35,981 bases of DNA from the NCBI GenBank assembly GCA_947176285.1, contig CAMWQF010000002.1, positions 1-35,981 of the forward strand. Reading direction: 5' to 3'. The notes under the pieces are model-generated. The model worked only from the letters and a program-made list of their open reading frames with translations. It did no database searches and was not told where the DNA came from. The DNA comes from an uncultured Porphyromonadaceae bacterium. GTDB taxonomy: Bacteria; Bacteroidota; Bacteroidia; Bacteroidales; Muribaculaceae. Made by a program: the position numbers and the translations under genes. Within the stretch, counting starts at the first letter, position 1; the number at the start of each line of letters is the position of its first letter. Positions 1-368 of this stretch are shown here, one piece after another.

Positions 1-121
1 CTAAGCCGATCGGAAGACCTACAACCGTAGCACAAACACACAAGCCTAAAATACCGTATAAAATAGCCCATATCCATCCGAAGAATGGAAAAATCCAAAG
101 AATGTTCCAAAAAATATTCAT
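1..121 (-). CDS. YccF-like (DUF307) small inner-membrane protein, N-terminal fragment truncated by the window edge
   Basis: Reverse complement from ATG at 121 reads MNIFWNILWIFPFFGWIWAILYGILGLCVCATVVGLPIGL, hydrophobic with a YccF-like G-x-P-x-G pattern. The ORF track omits it because it is truncated. Confidence 0.5.
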   Translation of the reverse strand, partial: MNIFWNILWIFPFFGWIWAILYGILGLCVCATVVGLPIGL

Positions 122-188: not shown

Positions 189-368
189 AAAAAGCGTGGG
201 ACGATCTCTACTGTATATTTCAATCAGGGTATCGGCAAACACCTCTCACGTAATAAACAGCCCGCTCCCACGCCTGATCGGATATCGGAATCCCCCTTGT
301 CGGGGAGCGGATATACGACAAGCATGAGCGTTTATAGCTGCTAATCCCACGTGAAAAATTTTGCCGAT
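189..368 (-). ncRNA. Putative structured non-coding RNA, family not identified
   Basis: Minus-strand helices: 345-351 with 195-201 (CGTGGGA/TCCCACG) closing a ~157-nt domain; 303-310 with 262-269 (CCGCTCCC/GGGAGCGG); 252-260 with 211-219 (8 of 9 paired). TTTTT at 189-193 follows the closing stem. GC content is visibly higher than in the flanks, and no convincing ORF covers it. Confidence 0.45.

Follow-up and report, generated by a model that had tools for sequence, protein, structure and literature searches.

The minus strand of the DNA stretch analysed here (35,981 nucleotides, hereafter the window) contains a set of short helices between positions 189 and 368 that compete for the same strands, upstream of a truncated YccF-like gene. 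This raises the question whether the locus encodes an independent small RNA (such as 6S or an RNA restricted to Bacteroidales) or a cis-acting switch for the gene that follows; the initial annotation had proposed both.

All pairings listed there can indeed be read from the minus strand. After the segment TCCCACG (201-195) come C194 and a T5 tract (193-189), and CGTGGGA occurs at two sites, 351-345 and 272-266. Furthermore, CCGCTCCC (310-303) is complementary to GGGAGCGG (269-262) in 8/8 positions, ATCGGCAAA (368-360) to TTTGCCGAT (239-231) in 9/9 and CTGTTTATT (260-252) to AATATACAG (219-211) in 8/9. These pairings are not due to chance, since the minus strand of 180-380 folds at -83.5 kcal/mol against -52.8 +/- 4.5 for dinucleotide shuffles (z = -6.8), and 0 out of 200 shuffles was as stable.

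Four of the five pairings are also kept in 35 relatives from the same genus, with 91-96% of the cells paired. The exception is 345-351/195-201, which is present in the window but is paired in 60% of the cells among these relatives, equal to the shuffled level. A closing stem using 345-351 is peculiar to the window, and the conserved alternative is formed by the tail and the internal copy at 266-272. The pairings 266-272/195-201 and 252-260/211-219 are two halves of one alternative hairpin.

Extent and distribution of the element

The compact structure had been placed at 189-368. The structure itself stands, but the true element is larger and covers 187-398 of the minus strand, as judged from covariation and from a covariance model (R1; 206 bits, E 9e-51). 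Beyond these borders we find a promoter (440-469), a 5' hairpin (418-434) and a downstream partner of the tail (143-150).

A BLASTN search with 180-420 was positive in 16 of 61 related genomes, of which some hold 2-3 copies; identity is mostly 70-79%. Model R1 was derived from an alignment (A1) of 15 full-length copies. It matches in 69 of the 111 genomes of the window's genus (E ≤ 0.01), leaving 42 that show no copy, in 87 of 295 genomes sampled across the order (E ≤ 0.001; 61 of 184 genera) and in 9 of 396 across the phylum (E ≤ 1e-6). Up to 7 copies per genome are seen in the genus and up to 8 in the order, numbers that are lower bounds because scoring covered only a few candidates in each genome. 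Matches in antisense orientation, which the palindromic rods produce, reach at most 38 bits, against at least 53 bits for the members used here. An exact pattern taken from the conserved 3' half and run over 84,980 species gave at least 119 stretches. Among the matches listed, all titles are Bacteroidota except for two MAGs that carry the labels Paenibacillus and Oscillospiraceae and are taken to be misbinned; the matches listed include Bacteroides fragilis, B. finegoldii, B. cellulosilyticus, Parabacteroides and Muribaculaceae as well as Rikenella, Odoribacter, Chryseobacterium and Winogradskyella.

The window's own genome carries a second, more diverged copy (L294:248-473, on G000:C310). Tandem pairs in the same orientation, 112-177 nt apart, occur at three loci (L243, L140 and L116), and four genomes (G008, G025, G092 and G109) have additional hits that form close pairs. 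Five viral contigs from IMG/VR (L201-L205) also contain the element; three of these have the same downstream gene, which is also present after the element at L262, from a Bacteroidales genome. A phage origin was considered and rejected, as the phage collection gave no match, yet the element is carried by these five IMG/VR contigs.

Conserved structure and pseudoknot

To 82 diverse members (alignment A3) we fitted a structure consisting of helices P1, K, P3, P4 and an apical helix together with a GGY/RCC hairpin. Overall 93.2% of the cells are paired, and 48 of the 52 pairs show changes on both sides. The covariation among relatives is very strong: 985 cells carry a compensatory double change, against 276 after shuffling and 95-130 in slid controls, and the covariation score amounts to 0.635 against 0.186 for shuffles. 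Such a structured, covarying core is a property of attenuator leaders. The rod measures approximately 160-225 nt across members, and G-U pairs are common.

In the window the element begins with AAGCGTTTTTGCTT (385-398), which holds a local AAGC/GCTT hairpin (88% of cells paired, 4/4 pairs changed on both sides). P1 is formed by TTCAATCA (372-379) and TGATTGAA (219-226); it is 97% paired with compensatory changes in every pair of the family alignment. P3 consists of TCACGT (349-354) and ACGTGA (246-251) and is 96% paired, again with all pairs compensatory. The closing stem AAGCG/CGCUU is conserved, and no covariation was found in it.

The K helix deserves separate mention. In the family it joins AAUCGCCAA to UUUGGCGAU, is 97.6% paired and has changes on both sides in 8/8 pairs. 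As the GGY...RCC hairpin has UUUGGCGAU in its loop, the K helix is a pseudoknot. The hairpin itself is 96.7% paired, and its third pair (U-A/C-G) covaries in 32 sequences. In distant members entire loop partners are exchanged together, for example as CUGGAC/GUCCAG, CUCGCA/UGCGAG and ACGACC/GGUCGU. The window has a double G-C/C-G swap here: its 5' strand at 360-368 (ATCGGCAAA, with family consensus AATCGCCAA) lies inside a weakly supported A/T hairpin, and its covarying 3' strand at 231-239 (TTTGCCGAT) is situated in the loop of the hairpin GGT-GTTTGCCGAT-ACC (228-243).

Given these data, it is hardly credible that the copies represent a mobile palindromic repeat (MITE- or ERIC-like), of which a DNA hairpin rather than an RNA is maintained. 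Such a repeat would explain why a genome can hold several copies, in contexts that are unrelated and in some cases at contig ends. However, the copies usually share just 70-79% identity and still keep their pairing through compensatory change, the common G-U pairs and the covarying pseudoknot do not suit a DNA hairpin, and no family of identical copies was found in the window's genome. Instead of the orientation-free insertion and near-identical copies of these repeats, we observe a fixed order and orientation of promoter, element and start codon.

Position of the element relative to promoters and genes

A TAnnTTTG promoter is present at most 150 nt upstream (mostly 40-80 nt) in 87% of 129 diverse members, compared to 6% downstream and 21% on the reverse strand. 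In these same 129 members the start codon of the first open reading frame peaks 50-70 nt past the conserved CCCACGCTT; in Parabacteroides distasonis, the CDS annotated by NCBI begins 55 nt past the element. The sequence that separates the promoter from the element folds at -0.202 kcal/mol/nt, against -0.112 for shuffles (108 members). In the window the promoter (440-469) is of the Bacteroidota -33/-7 type, with TTG at 469-467, a 19-nt spacer and TAATTTTG at 447-440, and is followed by a small hairpin AGACTGC/GCAGTCT (418-434) close to the transcript start. The gene behind the leader (1-121, minus strand) is cut at the contig end; its 40 residues match YccF weakly (E 0.005). At an orthologous locus (L208) the same element and a conserved promoter precede a YccF gene that is recognised as PF03733 (E 1.7e-11).

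The tail of the element also pairs with sequence ahead of the start codon. In 39% of the members it can form 6 or more Watson-Crick pairs with a GGGA-type segment there, against 9% in controls with exchanged downstream regions. Where 5 or more pairs are possible (a subset of 70 members), this segment often occupies the loop of a hairpin (37% have arms of at least 5 pairs around it, against 16%). In the window the YccF start codon is preceded at 22 nt by GGGGCGAT (150-143), with which ATCGTCCC (205-198) can pair in place of its partner within the element; at L294 the contact is GTTCCC/GGGAAC. Many members do not have the contact. Three Rikenellaceae members (L088, L120 and L130) have no GGGA partner and show another conserved stretch, ACTCACCAAAACAAACAAAAA..., before the start codon.

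That the element forms an mRNA 5' leader is thus well supported, and its location downstream of a promoter agrees with that of attenuators. The proposed switch upstream of the YccF-like gene gains support in the same way, as many unrelated genes show the same arrangement upstream, with a promoter, the element and a fixed distance to the start codon. The 101 downstream proteins fall into 63 Pfam families, none with more than 5 members, including BspA-type LRR proteins, outer-membrane barrels, lipoproteins and polysaccharide export, but also LytTR, restriction-modification and dynamin-like proteins. The copy at L294 precedes a gene resembling a secreted BspA-type LRR protein (LRR assigned by eye). 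By a simple heuristic 57% of the first genes have a signal-peptide-like start, against 30% of background open reading frames that include non-genes. Most metabolite riboswitches precede genes forming a coherent pathway. A coherent set of controlled genes is not seen here, and this diversity therefore favours a general signal or factor over a single metabolic pathway.

In different genera the gene immediately after the element encodes a member of one family of small HTH-like proteins (HIGxxIKE...HDFFxDLS; L211, L214, L227, L045, L050, L134, L138 and L158). Four were scanned against Pfam: the one at L134 matches HTH_3 and the three others are without match. It is possible that this family is a dedicated regulator. 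A link to anti-phage defence was rejected, as restriction-modification and GTPase genes are merely scattered among the downstream genes.

The whole window has no Rfam match at gathering scores, positions 120-460 have none even at E ≤ 10 (6S and Bacteroidales-1 included), and fifteen further members searched at their own length have none either. For the window, a Bacteroides fragilis member and a compact member, neither 6S, 6S-Flavo and Bacteroidales-1 nor any other Rfam family scores above noise. In the literature searched we found no description of the element; an unnamed mention is possible, for example in a 2017 survey of 224 candidate RNAs. Like 6S and 6S-Flavo (RF00013 and RF01685), the element is a long rod with a promoter and a U-run, but it lacks a match to either model (E ≤ 10), has other conserved sequences and is tied to genes in 0-8 copies, whereas 6S usually occupies a single gene-independent locus per genome. 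The Bacteroidales-1 RNA (RF01693) has a similar length and also occurs in Bacteroidales, but its model does not match the element. That model does work in this genome: a true Bacteroidales-1 RNA is found elsewhere (G000:C10:213-405, 97.8 bits). The FopS/GibS paralogous sRNAs of Bacteroides likewise form a multicopy RNA family in Bacteroidota. According to its published description, FopS has a consensus of a single-stranded 5' stretch and a terminator hairpin, acting in trans (PMC11697453); the element, in contrast, is not a short sRNA of a 5' seed and a terminator hairpin, but a rod with a pseudoknot.

As a side observation, the 6S and 6S-Flavo models return nothing over their cut-off in approximately 40 Bacteroidales genomes, and 6S therefore seems to be unrecognised there.

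The other proposal, an independent small RNA (6S-like, restricted to Bacteroidales or other) that has its own promoter and terminator and lies upstream of genes by chance, is consequently improbable. A promoter of its own, a terminator-like end and a long rod would all suit it. Nonetheless, the start codon stays at a near-constant 50-70 nt, the pairing of the tail with the region before it covaries copy by copy, the models of 6S, 6S-Flavo and Bacteroidales-1 do not match, and a genus in which 42 genomes lack a copy and others have up to 7 is not what such an RNA would show.

Two alternative folds and their possible role

The mutually exclusive helices noted at the outset are borne out by the family, as both alternatives covary. 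In the rod a 5' strand is paired with an internal strand, GGCGUGGG...CUGUUUAUU, and this internal strand is complementary to the 3' tail GAUAAAC...CCCACGC as well. In the window this internal strand is GGCGTGGGAGCGGGCTGTTTATT (252-274), common to both folds. Its 5' competitor is CGCTCATGC (322-330; apical helix 94.9% paired) and its 3' competitor the tail AATATACAG...TCCCACGC (194-219), directly followed by the U5 tract (189-193). Mean duplex energies for internal strand and tail are -22.1 for own pairs, compared to -17.4 with swapped tails and -11.0 with reversed ones; for 5' strand and internal strand they are -23.3 against -17.5 when swapped. Even after removal of the conserved cores, internal strand and tail yield -8.94 against -6.02 for permuted pairs (0 out of 1000 permutations), whereas the core alone is 94% paired with 20 double changes against 6.9. 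The U-run after the tail has 6-8 T per 8 nt in 101 of 131 members. Within the genus CCGCTCCC (303-310) provides a further alternative partner for 269-262 (95.7% paired, 6 double changes against 1.3 for shuffles in 35 relatives), which is absent from compact distant members. Computationally, the leader can thus adopt two mutually exclusive folds of which one resembles a terminator, as in an attenuator.

From this a mechanism can be proposed. Transcription would start at the Bacteroidota-type promoter and first produce the small 5' hairpin, then a rod of approximately 160-225 nt whose pseudoknotted core is made by the AAUCGCCAA strand and the loop of GGY-GUUUGGCGAU-RCC. In the apical half of the rod the internal strand would be paired with the 5' strand. 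The emerging 3' tail may then capture the internal strand to form a long hairpin directly before the U-run, an arrangement shaped like an intrinsic terminator. As long as the rod persists, the tail would remain free and RNA polymerase would read through; in many members the tail could subsequently pair with a GGGA-type loop situated 10-30 nt upstream of the start codon in genes for secreted or surface proteins. A candidate signal (metabolite, protein or RNA) would most likely act on the pseudoknotted core and tip the equilibrium towards either the rod, with read-through, or the terminator.

Nearest-neighbour energies favour the rod over the terminator fold, on average by 6.8 kcal/mol and by 15 in the window. 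Termination would therefore need kinetics or a factor, and read-through by default with conditional termination is possible. This stability difference also suits the main rival, namely that the leader acts in cis on translation or mRNA stability rather than on transcription termination. A global RNA-binding protein might then bind the element, or the element might serve as a thermosensor or control ribosome access, and the contact between tail and GGGA near the start codon would be the output. The covariation of that contact, its partner being often in a hairpin loop, and the very diverse downstream genes, as expected for a global factor, fit as well. On the other hand, the contact is absent in many members, while the internal-tail helix and U-run are nearly universal, and we consider this reading rather unlikely.

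On balance we lean towards a riboswitch-like attenuator leader, representing a cis-acting family of Bacteroidota that is absent from Rfam. The computations give good support to the family, its structure, the placement between promoter and start codon and the covariation of both folds and of the downstream contact; termination at the 3' hairpin, the direction of control and the trigger are what we infer from these. With transcription-attenuation riboswitches the element shares the 5' leader position, a conserved pseudoknotted core, mutually exclusive folds with one terminator-like, and tandem copies at some loci. It differs in having no known ligand or Rfam family, in its diverse genes and in a rod that is predicted to be the stabler fold. 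Riboswitch-type attenuators are therefore the closest kind, and membership of the class cannot be claimed, as this would require a ligand and as the genes do not form a coherent regulon.

Riboswitches for c-di-GMP (GEMM) are widely distributed and precede diverse extracellular and surface genes. The element may be likened to them in its broad spread before such genes, but it is unrelated in sequence and structure and has no Rfam match. Tentatively, it could belong to a widespread class of sensory leaders (an orphan riboswitch) in which one common signal controls secreted, surface and accessory genes together, as a mixed regulon, through strand exchange between rod and terminator.

Summarizing, relatives of the element precede very different genes in about one third of the sampled Bacteroidales genomes, and it therefore looks like a widely used, unrecognised gene switch before varied, mostly secreted or surface genes. 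An RNA family with strong covariation that occurs in approximately 30% of sampled Bacteroidales and has no Rfam entry represents a large annotation gap, with carriers spanning Bacteroides, Parabacteroides and Muribaculaceae. The surface of gut Bacteroidota is under many layers of control. If the proposed reading is true, an RNA switch shared by diverse surface and accessory genes would make its signal directly testable in tractable species.
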